Below, piece by piece: positions 456-9,881 of a stretch of 33,679 bases of DNA. The notes beneath the pieces were generated by a model. It worked only from the letters and a program-made list of their open reading frames with translations, was not told where the DNA came from and made no database searches. A program made the translations under genes and the position numbers. The stretch is taken from assembly GCA_013151775.1 (NCBI GenBank), contig JAADHO010000021.1, positions 1-33,679 on the forward strand, given 5' to 3'. Position 1 is the first letter of the stretch. The number at the start of each line of letters is the position of its first letter. The DNA comes from Deltaproteobacteria bacterium. Lineage in GTDB: Bacteria > Myxococcota_A > Polyangia > Polyangiales > Houyiibacteriaceae.

Positions 456-1256
456 ATGATCGACAAGAAGCTGCGCTTTTACTCCTACAACGTGAATGGC
501 CTCAGGGCCTGCACCAGGAAAGGTTTCCGCGAGTGGCTGAAGACGAGCCGCGCGGATCTGGTGGGGCTGCAGGAGGTGCGCGCCAAGCCTGAGCAGCTCG
601 AGGACGATGTGCGCGATCCCAAGCGCTGGCACACGCACTTCGTGCCGGCGGAGCGCCCGGGCTACAGCGGCGTCGGGCTCTACTCACGCGAGCCGGCGGA
701 CGAGCTCGAGACTTCCTTGGGCGAAGAGCGCTTCGACTCCGAGGGCCGCCTCGTGTTCGCGCGCTTTGGCCCACTCTTGATCGTCAACGGCTACTTCCCC
801 AACGGCTCAGGCAAGAACCGAGACAACTCCCGCGTGCCCTACAAGCTCGACTTCTATCGCGCCCTCTTCGAGAAGCTCGAGGCGGAGCGCGCAGCCGGCG
901 GGCGCATCCTGGTGATGGGCGACTTCAACACCGCCCACGAGGCACGCGACCTGGCGCGACCCAAGGCCAACGAGAAGACGAGCGGCTTCTTGCCTGAAGA
1001 GCGCGCGGAGCTCGGGCGCTGGCTCGACAGCGGCTGGACCGACACCTTCCGCCACTTCGAGGAGGGCACGGGCCACTACTCGTGGTGGAGCCAACGCTTC
1101 GGTGTGCGCGCCAAGAACATCGGCTGGCGCATCGACTACATCCTCGCGTCGCCCGGCGCCATGGAGTACGTGCGCGGCGCGCGGATCCACCCCACGGTGA
1201 TGTGCTCCGACCACTGCCCGATCAGCGTCGACCTCGACCCGGCCATCCGCACTTGA
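456..1256 (+). CDS. xth: Exodeoxyribonuclease III (AP endonuclease, ExoIII/EEP family)
   Basis: YSYNVNGLRA, LVGLQEVRA, GDFNTAHEARDLARPKANEKTSGFLPEERAELGRWL, RIDYILAS, CSDHCPISVDLD motifs. ORF track begins at 405, but the ATG at 456 (MIDKKLRFYSYNVNG) fits the family N-terminus better. Confidence 0.93.
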   Translation: MIDKKLRFYSYNVNGLRACTRKGFREWLKTSRADLVGLQEVRAKPEQLEDDVRDPKRWHTHFVPAERPGYSGVGLYSREPADELETSLGEERFDSEGRLVFARFGPLLIVNGYFPNGSGKNRDNSRVPYKLDFYRALFEKLEAERAAGGRILVMGDFNTAHEARDLARPKANEKTSGFLPEERAELGRWLDSGWTDTFRHFEEGTGHYSWWSQRFGVRAKNIGWRIDYILASPGAMEYVRGARIHPTVMCSDHCPISVDLDPAIRT

Positions 1257-1272
1257 GGCTCCACGGACTCAC
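1225..1272 (+). repeat. Left copy of 48-bp direct repeat (exoIII 3' end plus first codons of hflX)
   Basis: gcgtcgacctcgacccggccatccgcacttgaGgctccacggactcac; matches 2687-2734 with a single mismatch (G1257 vs A2719). Confidence 0.95.
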
Positions 1273-1311
1273 CACAGCTCAGGTGCTGCTCGACATCTGA
1301 CTCGTCCGGGC

Positions 1312-2535
1312 TCAGCCACCCCTCGCGTACGCGTCCACCAGCGCGATCCCCGTCCTGACACTAGGAGCGGCGTTCTCGACATAGATCGGGACCTGCACGG
1401 CCCATGAGATGCGTACCGCCTCGAACAGCAGCGCGTGGAGGAAGCTCTGGGTGCAGACGTCCATGTGCCGAAAATCGAGGGCCACAGCTTCGCGAGCGAA
1501 GAGCCTCTTCTGGAGTTGATCTCGCGATACGAGCGCCGCCTGCTCCACGTCCTCGGCGATGGTTCGGACCAGGTAGCTGAACGTTCCGTCCGGCGGCGGC
1601 TCGAAACGAACCCAGGCCGAGGTATTGCGCTCCGGCGTACGCTGCTGAGCCTTCGCGCTGATGGTCTCGATCAGCGCCGCATGATCCTTCACTTCGTCCA
1701 AGGGAAACTCAAAGGTGACCAAGGTCCCCGGAAAGCTACGTTGGCGAAGAAACGACAGACGTCGTTGCTCATAGCCTGCGCCGCCGCGAAGCAGCAGCGC
1801 CGCCCCGCGACTCGCGACCAGAAGCCGCCCCGTAGTCAGCTTCGCCATCTCGGAGATGAAGAACAAGCCCATGCCCGCGTTGAAGGCGGAGCCCGTGCGC
1901 CCGGGCCCAAAGGACCCGGAGACGTGTGGTTGAAGCGCTTTCACCAGGGCGGCCTCGGCATCCGAGAGATCAGGATAGGTCGCGCCCAACGCTTCCAAGA
2001 CGCCCATCCCTGCGTCTGCCACGACCACCTGCACGGCGCTCCTCTCGTATCCGCGGAAGCCAGCGTCCATACGTTGCGCGGCCACGACGCACCCGAGCGG
2101 GTCGCCTGAATGCTGCACCGCGTTCCGCATCAACTCGACCAGCACGTAGATCAAGCTGCGCAGAGTCTCATCTTCCTCCTCTTCCGGGAGGAGCATTCTC
2201 GCGATCTCACGCGCGATCCCCTCGACGACGTCTATTGCCATGACTCGTCGCAACCCGACGGTCTGGCCGGCCTCTCCTGAAAGCCCGCCCTGACCGGCCA
2301 CGACCTCGTCGAAGCCTACGGCGTGGGCGAAACGCATCGCCGCTCGATCGCCGCCGCCAGATAGCCGAAGCTCATCGCCTCCGTTCTTCCTCGCCAGGAC
2401 CGCGAGCCCCGCCAAAGCCCACACCTCCGCGACCGAGACTTCATCCAGGTTGGCCTCGCCTGTCGCGACGGCGTGCTCCAACCAAGCCAGAAACGACCGA
2501 GGAGCATGCAGCCGAAAGCGTTCGGGTCGATGCAT
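1312..2535 (-). CDS. GHKL/HATPase_c ATP-binding protein with STAS-like domains (DUF4325-like C-terminus)
   Basis: N-box-like LVELMRNAVQHSG, G1 VVVADAGMGV, G2 GMGLFFISEMAKLTTG. C-terminal REAVALDFRHMDVCTQSFLHALLFEAVR resembles the STAS-like DUF4325 pattern; the N-terminal VWALAGLAVLARKNGGDELRLSG...RFAHAVGFDEVV is also STAS-like. ORF extends to 2601; the ATG at 2535 (MHRPERFRL) is a plausible start. Confidence 0.75.
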   Translation of the reverse strand: MHRPERFRLHAPRSFLAWLEHAVATGEANLDEVSVAEVWALAGLAVLARKNGGDELRLSGGGDRAAMRFAHAVGFDEVVAGQGGLSGEAGQTVGLRRVMAIDVVEGIAREIARMLLPEEEEDETLRSLIYVLVELMRNAVQHSGDPLGCVVAAQRMDAGFRGYERSAVQVVVADAGMGVLEALGATYPDLSDAEAALVKALQPHVSGSFGPGRTGSAFNAGMGLFFISEMAKLTTGRLLVASRGAALLLRGGAGYEQRRLSFLRQRSFPGTLVTFEFPLDEVKDHAALIETISAKAQQRTPERNTSAWVRFEPPPDGTFSYLVRTIAEDVEQAALVSRDQLQKRLFAREAVALDFRHMDVCTQSFLHALLFEAVRISWAVQVPIYVENAAPSVRTGIALVDAYARGG

Positions 2536-2686
2536 AGCTCTGCTGTCTATCGCGAAGGATCCTCCGCGGCCAGCGGAGTGGGCAGAAACACGTTGGCACA
2601 AGCATTTGCATCCCGCGCGGAGGACGGCGGCTGGCCTCGAGGTCGCGCGCGTCGTAGCTTCGGCGCCTCGACGCGCTCCATGCGCG

Positions 2687-2734
2687 GCGTCGACCTCGAC
2701 CCGGCCATCCGCACTTGAAGCTCCACGGACTCAC
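2687..2734 (+). repeat. Right copy of 48-bp direct repeat (truncated exoIII 3' end plus native hflX start)
   Basis: gcgtcgacctcgacccggccatccgcacttgaAgctccacggactcac; 47/48 identical to 1225-1272. Confidence 0.95.
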
Positions 2735-4343
2735 TTCGGGCCTCGCGCCCTCCCAACTACAGGCCCTCGAGCGCCTGTATCAGCGGCACGTGCCCTTCGA
2801 CGCGCTGACCACGCCGGAGCTCAGCCGCACCATGGCCGAGGCGACCGCGCGCACCGGTCGACAGGTAGGCGTGCTGGTCGATCGCGACGGGCGCGTGAAC
2901 CACGTGATCGTCGGCGACGCCACCCACATCGATCTGCCCGACGTGGGTCGGCTGCGCGCCGCGGGAGGCCGCCTGCGCGGGCTACGCCTGCTGCACACGC
3001 ATCTTCACAACGAGCCGCTGACGCGGGATGACTTGGTCGATCTGACCCTGCTGCGCCTCGACATGGTCGCGGCCTTCTGCCTCGCGCCGAGCGGCCTCTT
3101 CCGCCAGGTCTACTACGGCCACAACGTGCCCCTCGACCCGAGCGGCGAGGGCGAGCCCTACGCGGTCTACGGGCCGATCGCTCACGACCAACTCGACGTG
3201 AACCCCAAGCGCATCGTGGAGGCGCTCGAGCAGGAGTTCACGCGCGCCGCCAAGGCGCACCGCACGAAAGCCAAGGACGGTCGCGCCATGCTCGTGCACG
3301 TGTGCGACAAGCGCGACGCGGCCAAGGCGGAGGACTCCCTGAGGGAGCTGTCGGAGCTCGCGCGCACCGCCGGGGTCGAGGTCGCGGACCGCGTACTTCA
3401 GGTGCGCCACCGCGTCGATCCCAAGTACGTGCTCGGCCGCGGCAAGCTCGAGGAGGTCGTGATCCGCGCCATGCAGCGCGACGTGGAGGTGCTGATCTTC
3501 GACCGGAATCTCTCACCCGCCCAGGCCGCGGCCATCGCCAAGATGACGGACCTCAAGGTGCTCGACCGCACGCAGCTGATCCTCGACATCTTCGCGCAGC
3601 GTGCCGAGAGCCGAGACGGCAAGCTCTCCGTGGAGCTCGCGCAGACCAAGTATCTGCTGCCGCGCCTCGGCGCCAAAGACGACGCTCTGTCTCGTCTGAG
3701 CGGCGGCATCGGCGGACGCGGACCCGGCGAGACCAAGATCGAGGTGGGCAAGCGCCGCGCGAACGACCGCATCACCAAGCTCAAGCGCGACCTCGCCAAG
3801 CTCGCCGGTCAACGCAAACAGCGGCGACGGCGGCGGCAGAAGAGTCGCGCACCGATCGTGGCCTTGGTCGGCTACACCAACGCCGGCAAGAGCACGCTCT
3901 TGAATCAGCTCACCGGCAGCGACGTGCTCGCCGAGGACGCCCTCTTCGCGACCTTGGACACGCGCTCGCGCAGGCTCTACCTGCCGTCGGCGCGCGAGGC
4001 GGTCGTCACGGACACCGTCGGCTTCATTCGCGAGCTGCCCAAGGATCTCTTCGACGCCTTCCGCTCCACGTTCGAAGAGGCCGAAGACGCCGACCTCTTG
4101 CTCCACTGCGTGGACGCGTCGGATCCGAGTCACGCCGAGCAGATTCGGACCAGTGAGCGGCTCCTGCTCGACCTCGGCCTCGAGCACATTCCGCGCCTGA
4201 TGGTGTTCACCAAGGCCGACCGCCTCGATGGGGGGCGCGCCGAGGCCCTCGCCGCGGGCCACGGTGGTGTCGCCCTGAACGCCCTCGACCGCGCCTGCCG
4301 CCCTGACCTGCTCGCGCGCATGGACTCGATGCTGCCGGGCTGA
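2715..4343 (+). CDS. hflX: GTPase HflX
   Basis: HflX N-terminal region HGLTSGLAPSQLQALERLYQRHVPFDAL, YVLGRGKLEEVV, LSGGIGGRGPGETKIEVGKRR, G-motifs VGYTNAGKSTLLN / DTVGFIRELP / FTKAD. Start codon TTG at 2715. Confidence 0.95.
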   Translation: MKLHGLTSGLAPSQLQALERLYQRHVPFDALTTPELSRTMAEATARTGRQVGVLVDRDGRVNHVIVGDATHIDLPDVGRLRAAGGRLRGLRLLHTHLHNEPLTRDDLVDLTLLRLDMVAAFCLAPSGLFRQVYYGHNVPLDPSGEGEPYAVYGPIAHDQLDVNPKRIVEALEQEFTRAAKAHRTKAKDGRAMLVHVCDKRDAAKAEDSLRELSELARTAGVEVADRVLQVRHRVDPKYVLGRGKLEEVVIRAMQRDVEVLIFDRNLSPAQAAAIAKMTDLKVLDRTQLILDIFAQRAESRDGKLSVELAQTKYLLPRLGAKDDALSRLSGGIGGRGPGETKIEVGKRRANDRITKLKRDLAKLAGQRKQRRRRRQKSRAPIVALVGYTNAGKSTLLNQLTGSDVLAEDALFATLDTRSRRLYLPSAREAVVTDTVGFIRELPKDLFDAFRSTFEEAEDADLLLHCVDASDPSHAEQIRTSERLLLDLGLEHIPRLMVFTKADRLDGGRAEALAAGHGGVALNALDRACRPDLLARMDSMLPG

Positions 4344-4361
4344 CTCGCGGACGCGAAGCGC

Positions 4362-6254
4362 CTAGGGGTACTCGCGCACGCCCAGGTCGAAGCCGCCACT
4401 ACGGAGCGCGTTGATCATATCGTGATCGATGGGCGCGTAGTCCGGCGGCGGCACGTCGAAGAGCAGGTCGTCGGCTCCCGCGTTGATGGCGGGGCTGTCC
4501 GATTGCAAGCTGAAGTCGAGCCCGCTTGGATCGGTGAACTTGGGATCCTGATCGAGGATATTCGTCGCTGTGTCCACGCCGGTGGCGTCGATGGTCGAGG
4601 AGCCCATGTCGAAAAAGAGGTTGTCGCTGATTCGACTATTCTCTGGACTATTGTCGTCGATGTACACGCTGTTACGACCATCGAGCGGTTCGGACGAATT
4701 CATCACTACGATATTGTTTCGGAATTCTGTGCTCAGGATTCCGCTCCCGACGGAGAAAGCAACATACGCAGAATTGTACAGAACATTGTTGTAAAAGCGC
4801 GTGTCCGCAGTATTGGCGATTACGGTCGGAGCCCAGCCGATGTTATCGGTATCCGTCCGATCGAGTGTCCCACAGTTCATGAACAAGTTGTTGTAGACGA
4901 ATGTGGGCTCCGGAGCTGGCTCAGGCGGGTCGTAGCTCAGGTCGTAGACGTTGATCGCCACAGCACGCTGGGGACTACAGTCGACAATATTATTGAACAC
5001 AAAATGCGCCTTGAGGATTTGCGTACCCGGATCACATCGGTTTTCCTGATGATTGATGGATAGCACGGGTCCACGACCGAAGTCATTGTCGTACACGTAG
5101 TTCCACCCGAGATGATTTCCTACGATATCGGCACATCCGCTAAAATACGTGGCATGGTCGAAGCGGCTCTTGCTACGTCCACCATGAATGGCGTTGCCCA
5201 ATATCTTGTTTCCGCTGCCACCCGTGACGAGCGTTCCGGTCCCGGAGCCGTATTGATCTTTCAGACCAATAAGATCGTTTCCGATGAATCGATGATAGCT
5301 CGCCAAGCTCGCGGCCATCCACTCGGAGTCGATTTGAAAACCAGAGAAGACCATGTATTCGTTGCCGAACTTGATGCCGGTCCTGAAGTTCACGTTGTAG
5401 GACGCCACAAAGATCCGAGGCGTATCCCCCGGATACGCGAGCATCGCGATCGGACGACCTGCCTCACCGCTGGGCTCCGAGTTGCGGATCCACAACACCG
5501 AGTTTCCGCCATTCGCTCGGGAGTCGTAAGTCCCGGCACGGAAGTAGTAGAGGTCCCCAGGCTGCATGCCTGCGACGAAGCCGCTGCCGCCCGACGCTTG
5601 GGTGTAGACGAAGGGGTCAGAGAGCGACCCCGTGCCGTCCGCACCAGACGCGGCCACGAAGAAGATGCGGCCGCTTCGAATCGTAAACGGCAAGGGGGCG
5701 GAGGTCTTGTCACCGACGGTCACCGTGATCTCCGTCGGTCCGTCGCCCATCGCGCTCCCGAGCCAAAACGTGATCCGACTCCAAAAGGGCGTTGGCCAGG
5801 CCTCTCCCCACACTTGGTAGTCCGAATCGGATTCGAGACGTTGGCCACCCACGGTGACATAGCTGTCGCCGCGAGCCGTGCCCAAGCCGTGTCCCCAGAT
5901 GGTCACGGCGACGCCCTTGGTGGACGAACCGCCCCAGCCGGTGCTCGGGCCCGACTCGATGTCCGAGAACAGAAGTGTGGGCTGCCCCGGTTGGAAGGTG
6001 CCCGCGTCTCGTGCAGCTCCGTCCCGGCCGCCTGCGTCTCGGGCAGCACCGTCTCGAACTGCGGCATCGCTCCCGCTGCCATCCGCAGAGCCCGAATCGT
6101 CGACGGCGCCGGAGTCCGTAGCCGAACCTGAGTCAGCGGGCGCGGCGTTTCCCCCACCGCATGCCATGCTCGTGAGACAGATGGCGCCGAGGCCGACGGT
6201 GATCACCTGCAGCCAAGGTGTCCTGGAGTGGAGTGGTCGATAGCTGAGTCGCAT
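4362..6254 (-). CDS. Secreted lipoprotein with IPT/TIG-like and right-handed parallel beta-helix domains
   Basis: Start MRLSYRPLHSRTPWLQVITVGLGAICLTSMACGGG (lipobox-like) followed by a D/S/A/G-rich linker; VAVTIWGHGLGTARGDSYVTVGG is IPT-like; ADGTGSLSDPFVYTQA...GDLYYFRAGTYDSR and repeated N-rich turns (FVYNNLFMNCG, TRFYNNVLYNSA, TEFRNNIVVMNS, SPAINAG) fit beta-helix repeats. ORF track extends to 6314. Confidence 0.8.
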   Translation of the reverse strand: MRLSYRPLHSRTPWLQVITVGLGAICLTSMACGGGNAAPADSGSATDSGAVDDSGSADGSGSDAAVRDGAARDAGGRDGAARDAGTFQPGQPTLLFSDIESGPSTGWGGSSTKGVAVTIWGHGLGTARGDSYVTVGGQRLESDSDYQVWGEAWPTPFWSRITFWLGSAMGDGPTEITVTVGDKTSAPLPFTIRSGRIFFVAASGADGTGSLSDPFVYTQASGGSGFVAGMQPGDLYYFRAGTYDSRANGGNSVLWIRNSEPSGEAGRPIAMLAYPGDTPRIFVASYNVNFRTGIKFGNEYMVFSGFQIDSEWMAASLASYHRFIGNDLIGLKDQYGSGTGTLVTGGSGNKILGNAIHGGRSKSRFDHATYFSGCADIVGNHLGWNYVYDNDFGRGPVLSINHQENRCDPGTQILKAHFVFNNIVDCSPQRAVAINVYDLSYDPPEPAPEPTFVYNNLFMNCGTLDRTDTDNIGWAPTVIANTADTRFYNNVLYNSAYVAFSVGSGILSTEFRNNIVVMNSSEPLDGRNSVYIDDNSPENSRISDNLFFDMGSSTIDATGVDTATNILDQDPKFTDPSGLDFSLQSDSPAINAGADDLLFDVPPPDYAPIDHDMINALRSGGFDLGVREYP

Positions 6255-9227: not shown

Positions 9228-9881
9228 ATGTCTCGCCCCTTCGTGCTCGCGCTGAGCGCTCTCCTGATGCTGGGAAGTTGCGGCAGCCAAGCCGGATTCG
9301 CTCAAGACTCGGCGCGTTCTCCGAGCACACGACGCGCCCCTCCTCCCACCTCCGGTCGCGCCGTCGCCGTCTTCGCCGGTGGCTGCTTCTGGTGCATGGA
9401 GGGCCCCTTCGAGGCGCTCGAGGGCGTGAGCGCGGTGCTCTCGGGCTACTCGGGAGGTCAGCTCGAGGGCCCGAGCTACCAGGAGGTCTCCTCGGGCCGC
9501 ACGCGCCACCTCGAGGCCGTGCACGTGAGCTACGACCCGAGCCGCGTGAGCTATCAGCGCCTGCTCGAGGTCTATTGGCACAACGTGGATCCGACACAGG
9601 ATGACGGACAATTCTGCGACCACGGCCGGCAGTACCGAACCGCGATCTTCGTCCAGAACGCAGCGGAGCGGCGGCTGGCCGAGGCGAGCAAGGCGCACAT
9701 GGCGGAGGCGCTCGGGCGACCCATCAACACGGAGATTCGCGCCGACGCGCCCTTCTGGATCGCAGAGGCCTACCATCAGGACTACCACCGCACACACCCG
9801 ACGAGCTACCACCGCTACCGCACGGGCTGCGGCCGTGATGCGCGGCTACGCGAGCTCTGGGGCGCGAGCGCTGGGCACTGA
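9228..9881 (+). CDS. msrA: Peptide-methionine (S)-S-oxide reductase MsrA, exported/lipoprotein form
   Basis: GGCFWCMEGPFEALEGVSAVLSGYSGG and YRTAIFV are MsrA signatures. N-terminus MSRPFVLALSALLMLGSCGSQ looks like a lipoprotein signal. ORF track starts at 9150. Confidence 0.93.
   Translation: MSRPFVLALSALLMLGSCGSQAGFAQDSARSPSTRRAPPPTSGRAVAVFAGGCFWCMEGPFEALEGVSAVLSGYSGGQLEGPSYQEVSSGRTRHLEAVHVSYDPSRVSYQRLLEVYWHNVDPTQDDGQFCDHGRQYRTAIFVQNAAERRLAEASKAHMAEALGRPINTEIRADAPFWIAEAYHQDYHRTHPTSYHRYRTGCGRDARLRELWGASAGH

Follow-up and report, generated by a model that had tools for sequence, protein, structure and literature searches.

The window, by which we mean the whole 33,679-nucleotide stretch of DNA that was analysed, contains the host genes exoIII and hflX, separated by an insert with a direct repeat at each end (Table 1). 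Sequence comparison confirmed the original prediction of a 48-bp direct repeat at the exoIII/hflX junction, and the sole mismatch between its two copies is a G at position 1257 against an A at position 2719. About 3 x 10−16 pairs of 48-mers with one mismatch or none are expected by chance within the window, and in the 6.05-Mb assembly the 48-mer occurs at two sites only, both bracketing the insert. exoIII terminates within the left copy, and hflX, whose Pfam domains are GTP-bdg_N/M and MMR_HSR1, begins within the right copy with a TTG start that overlaps the exoIII TGA. Directly upstream of exoIII there is a ParE-type toxin gene at 51-368 on the plus strand (PF05016, 31.7 bits); its start is overlapped by the end of a short frame, a possible antitoxin gene, which is cut by the contig edge.

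By comparison with relatives, the conserved exoIII sequence (SDHCPISVDLDP) leads into the left copy but not the right, and the conserved hflX sequence (SGLAPS) follows the right copy but not the left. Homology to exoIII ends upstream of the right copy, and homology to hflX continues past the left copy for six codons only, in the stub RLHGLTTAQVLLDI followed by a stop. The repeat extends 16 bp beyond the exoIII stop codon into hflX, and the mismatch falls in the fossil hflX codon, the functional right copy having the codon found in L030. Because exoIII is continuous with the left copy only and hflX with the right copy only, the repeat is a duplicated target. The locus thus has the structure left host, repeat, insert, repeat, right host, an exact target duplication. 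The earlier proposal that a segment with one gene came in and duplicated the junction is supported.

Table 1. Features of the exoIII/hflX locus (positions in the window) and direct-repeat scars at other loci of the host genome (positions in the respective locus).
Locus	Feature	Position	Strand	Remarks
Window	exoIII, exodeoxyribonuclease III family, intact left host gene	456-1256	+	PF03372, E = 6e-38; 56-70% identity to relatives
Window	Left 48-bp copy: exoIII 3' end, TGA, fossil first hflX codons	1225-1272	+	47/48 identical to right copy; stub frame ends at 1300
Window	Insert proper, 1414 bp	1273-2686	.	GC 0.650 (genome 0.683); missing from exoIII-hflX junctions of relatives
Window	Cargo gene, 407 aa, predicted GHKL-type ATPase family	1312-2535	-	Antisense to exoIII/hflX; sole ORF of insert
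Window	Right 48-bp copy: exoIII 3' end fossil and functional hflX start	2687-2734	+	
Window	hflX GTPase, intact right host gene	2715-4343	+	PF13167, PF16360, PF01926; 57-71% identity to relatives
L090	44-bp repeat, 100% identical			1430-bp insert, GC 0.53; one antisense secreted-protein-like gene
L163	69-bp repeat, 100% identical, ECF sigma factor end			ParE-type toxin and likely antitoxin
L132	140-bp repeat, 99% identical, gltD-like end			ParE-like toxin (PF05016, weak) and RelN-like antitoxin (weak)
L073	109-bp repeat, radical-SAM gene end			HicA-like pair (PF07927, weak)
L186	152-bp repeat, 94% identical, methionine synthase end			Uma2
L118	78-bp repeat			RCC1-repeat lipoprotein-like gene
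L176	37-bp repeat, 100% identical, across two convergent gene ends	1367-5869		4.5-kb insert; XRE and ImmA/IrrE-type genes
L065	127-bp repeat			
L195 (G000:C222)	Imperfect 59+23 bp repeat with small indel	933-1038 and 1832-1949		RHH antitoxin-ParE toxin module

Eight relatives at family or order level have hflX immediately after exoIII, and the aligned ends of the two genes lie 14-113 bp apart. These empty sites were read from gene adjacency, the 48-bp repeat itself not being alignable at the nucleotide level at this divergence. As the only genome of the same genus (81% complete) has no real hflX match, the nearest comparison is at family level. The adjacency of the two genes in relatives, which agrees with the earlier view that they were once neighbours, means that the junction lacked the insert in its ancestral state and acquired it later; rather than all carrying the cargo gene here without repeats, the relatives carry the empty site. 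The closest arrangements are those of L005 and L030, with 1-6 bp from the exoIII stop to the hflX start. In six of the eight the gap is 89-113 bp with no overlap, and the idea that the insertion broke a translational coupling of exoIII and hflX is on this evidence speculative.

No transposase or integrase was found within the insert, as had been claimed: its single ORF is of GHKL ATPase type, with 39 bp of insert downstream of the stop codon and 151 bp upstream of the start codon. There are no terminal inverted repeats at the insert ends, the longest terminal inverted match being 4 bp. A scan for promoters and terminators at the locus gave nothing, and the insert has no match to a sigma-70-like promoter, which is a weak guide in a high-GC, myxobacterium-like genome. 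The cargo protein scores 20.4 bits with PF02518 (HATPase_c), below the cut-off of 26.4. An alignment of eight sequences of its family contains the GHKL motifs, an N-box (ELxRNxxQHS) and the G boxes VxDxGxG and NAGxGLFFISEMA, with E134, R137, N138, Q141, H142, D174xGxG and N219AGxGLFFIS invariant. An AlphaFold model (pLDDT 83) has weak matches to the ATPase folds of GyrB, Hsp90 and MutL. By these motifs and weak fold matches, the cargo is a predicted member of the GHKL ATPase superfamily. Searches with the cargo in PADLOC and NCBIfam, and against solved structures by sequence profile, returned nothing. Its C-terminal segment (LDFxxMxxCTQSxLHALL) may resemble STAS-like domains.

Members of the cargo family, 40-61% identical, occur in L033 (another genus of the same order) and in metagenome-assembled genomes labelled Vicinamibacteria, Planctomycetota, Phycisphaerales and Hyphomicrobiales. 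The family is patchy, being present in 8 of 97 relatives and scattered over several phyla. We found no repeats of at least 16 bp bracketing the homologs at 13 other loci, and by gene calls the homologs occupy differing gene layouts. One complete gene lies between the repeats, as in the original description of a single-gene cassette, but since the homologs are unbracketed the gene itself is not a mobile unit or a self-contained cassette. With its varied layouts, it is instead ordinary patchy cargo.

We conclude that a 1.4-kb one-gene segment was probably acquired horizontally and joined the exoIII-hflX junction by illegitimate recombination, duplicating 48 bp without the help of a transposase or integrase. 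Most probably, the breaks in the target strands would have been spaced by 48 bp, or else the incoming DNA would have had its two ends attached to chromosomal points with a 48-bp overlap; this stretch would then have been copied into both ends of the insert. Such a duplication keeps both exoIII and hflX whole, which explains how an insertion into overlapping genes could survive. This reading builds on the exact target duplication, the empty site of the relatives, the complete cargo, the absence of a recombinase and the recurrence of such structures in the genome; what we infer is how the DNA was joined at the molecular level and that the insert came from outside. Ku-dependent end joining was considered and rejected: Ku was not detected in the host genome, so the route need not be of that kind.

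The original prediction suggested searching for other cassettes flanked by duplicated host junctions. We scanned 1.65 Mb (27%) of the 6.05-Mb genome for direct repeats and found about ten loci of similar architecture, in which a near-identical repeat of 37-152 bp over the end of a host gene brackets complete cargo (Table 1). The repeat length differs by locus within this one genome (37, 44, 48, 69, 78, 109, 140 and 152 bp), and the cargo at the sister loci includes ParE-type and HicA-like toxin-antitoxin genes, Uma2, secreted proteins and lipoproteins. Some scars have identical copies and are presumably recent. At L195 the RHH-ParE module lies within the 5' portion of an ATPase gene, and the locus, with its imperfect repeat, appears to record a similar but older event. 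Likely tandem paralogs or arrays (L081, L124 and L151) were left out of the count; at L151:5500-7740, for example, three related small genes stand in tandem with 89-165 bp repeats (93-99% identical), which looks like recent tandem duplication. The same scan found no such scars in 650 kb of Sinorhizobium meliloti pSymB, and in 250 kb of Escherichia coli it found repeats only inside the annotated rhsC region (an Rhs element); because these controls are unrelated species, the enrichment in the host genome is indicative only. The recurrence of these scars, often around toxin-antitoxin genes, points to transposase-free gene gain.

An empty-site comparison at L132 identified the right copy as the native gltD end. 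At L163 the same-genus genome is not syntenic. For L090 the same-genus genome has neither an empty site nor the cargo; its matching junction (G001:C199:10348-12613) is occupied by about 2.26 kb without a match, which may be another cargo. Two further details concern individual sister loci. At L073:3440-4044, within the bracketed insert, the frame of the HicA-like toxin appears broken relative to its upstream start, through a frameshift or a sequence error. At L163:9147-9200 an AcrB-type ORF passes through the repeat fossil, and the same-genus relative matches it only from about position 9247, so the 3' end of this ORF may have been altered by the insertion.

The main rival to a target duplication is one-sided homologous recombination, in which a relative's DNA, made up of its own exoIII 3' end with the cargo behind it, crossed over within that homologous gene end and was attached at its far end by an illegitimate join inside exoIII. 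In that case the repeat copies would be two alleles, and the event could have been either homology-facilitated illegitimate recombination or the single crossover of a circularised fragment. In E. coli experiments, circularised fragments that entered by a single crossover produced duplications of 109-950 bp (PMC3240628), and one-sided homology has been proposed for the capture of effector-immunity modules in Vibrio cholerae (PMC5361080). The stop-anchored sister loci fit this route. At the six loci L186, L132, L118, L090, L073 and L163 the outer edge of the repeat lies within 0-6 bp beyond the host stop codon (distances, in ascending order, of 0, 2, 2, 3, 5 and 6 bp), and at L065 it lies 13 bp beyond it. 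Such clustering at the stop codon (repeats of 44-152 bp) has P ~ 2 x 10−6 against a uniform edge, and the coding differences between copies at sister loci, 16 synonymous against 6 non-synonymous, have P = 0.004 on the assumption that the target was duplicated and the fossil then decayed, both statistics having been picked after the data were seen. With stop-anchored edges and mainly synonymous differences the copies look like two alleles, which suggests that at these loci two functional alleles were brought together when a donor gene end with its cargo entered by one homologous and one illegitimate join. A staggered-break model alone does not predict either property.

At the window locus itself we consider one-sided recombination unlikely. 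Since the repeat there reaches 16 bp into hflX, the donor DNA would have needed exoIII, then a truncated hflX, then the cargo. The mismatch in the fossil hflX, with the L030 codon kept in the functional copy, is as expected from decay after duplication. The repeat at L176 likewise spans a junction: at both loci it covers parts of both host genes and ends at neither stop codon, and both fit plain target duplication. One-sided recombination with donor alleles may nevertheless be the commoner route in this genome, and if a single route made all the scars, the window locus may also have arisen from it.

Illegitimate joining with target duplication, our preferred reading, also has to be weighed against explanations that do without it. 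That the scars are assembly artefacts, with variant strains of a metagenome joined one after another, is improbable. The assembly is in 460 contigs, repeats of 37-152 bp are near the sizes of k-mer overlaps, and strains, too, would differ mostly at synonymous sites; but chance joins would cut genes, whereas the genes or operons within each examined insert are complete and leave short margins, the flanking genes on both sides are intact, and the cargo is non-random (toxin-antitoxin, Uma2). Slightly less credible still is site-specific integration of a small element with the 48-bp junction as its att site and its integrase lost or acting in trans. This had been raised in the original prediction, and the length of the repeat and the restored 3' end of exoIII do resemble att sites in gene ends, but we set it aside: the insert has no integrase, the 48-mer is unique in the genome, the cargo homologs have no att-like brackets, and nine comparable repeats found in the genome vary in both sequence and length (37-152 bp) and have no core in common beyond chance, nor do the insert ends, which have no terminal inverted repeats. 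A relic of a transposon or IS-mediated event is the least plausible of all, despite the foreign-looking gene within a direct repeat, because 48 bp far exceeds the usual target duplications of 2-14 bp, as had been pointed out, and there are neither terminal inverted repeats nor a transposase.

The genome-wide pattern of scars anchored at stop codons is of more interest than the window locus alone. Tentatively, and as a possibility that we hold with less confidence than our reading of the window, the genome may gain genes recurrently without a recombinase: the donor DNA would consist of cargo plus its own allele of the 3' end of a host gene, and recombination in the last 40-150 bp would restore the host gene, placing complete cargo behind its stop codon and leaving the old 3' end as a fossil. 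If this is true, gene ends are general landing sites for single-gene cassettes such as toxin-antitoxin modules, Uma2 genes and orphan ATPases. The entry of single genes and toxin-antitoxin pairs into chromosomes without transposases is poorly understood, and several scars per megabase make a readable record in which repeat length, repeat edge and copy differences allow target duplication to be told apart from recombination with a donor allele. If stop-codon anchoring holds in other genomes, it offers an easy way to search for small genes that were gained recently.

Parts of this picture resemble known systems. Homology-facilitated illegitimate recombination and single crossover also leave a duplicated part of a gene beside foreign DNA with no recombinase (PMC3240628), which suits the stop-anchored sister loci; the window repeat differs in covering two genes and not ending at a stop codon. 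In the serial displacement of T6SS effector-immunity modules and Rhs tips, too, a module enters at the 3' end of a conserved gene and leaves a displaced 3' fossil (PMC5361080), but in our genome the hosts are housekeeping genes whose product is unchanged, and the cargo is an independent gene. The closest likeness is to the insertion with long target duplication of restriction-modification genes in Helicobacter pylori (Nobusato et al. 2000), which we know from later descriptions of that work (PMC1643837, PMC3874152) that put the duplications "in the order of 100 bp". As far as these descriptions go, both systems have an insert without a transposase within a long direct target duplication of variable length, recognised against an empty site, with selfish or addiction genes among the cargo. 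Our case differs from the H. pylori system so described in its lineage, in its cargo (a GHKL ATPase, with toxin-antitoxin genes, Uma2 and lipoproteins at the sister loci) and in its many loci within one genome, which are mostly stop-edged with synonymous differences between copies. The window locus, with a repeat that covers parts of both host genes, fits as a further case of insertion with long target duplication.
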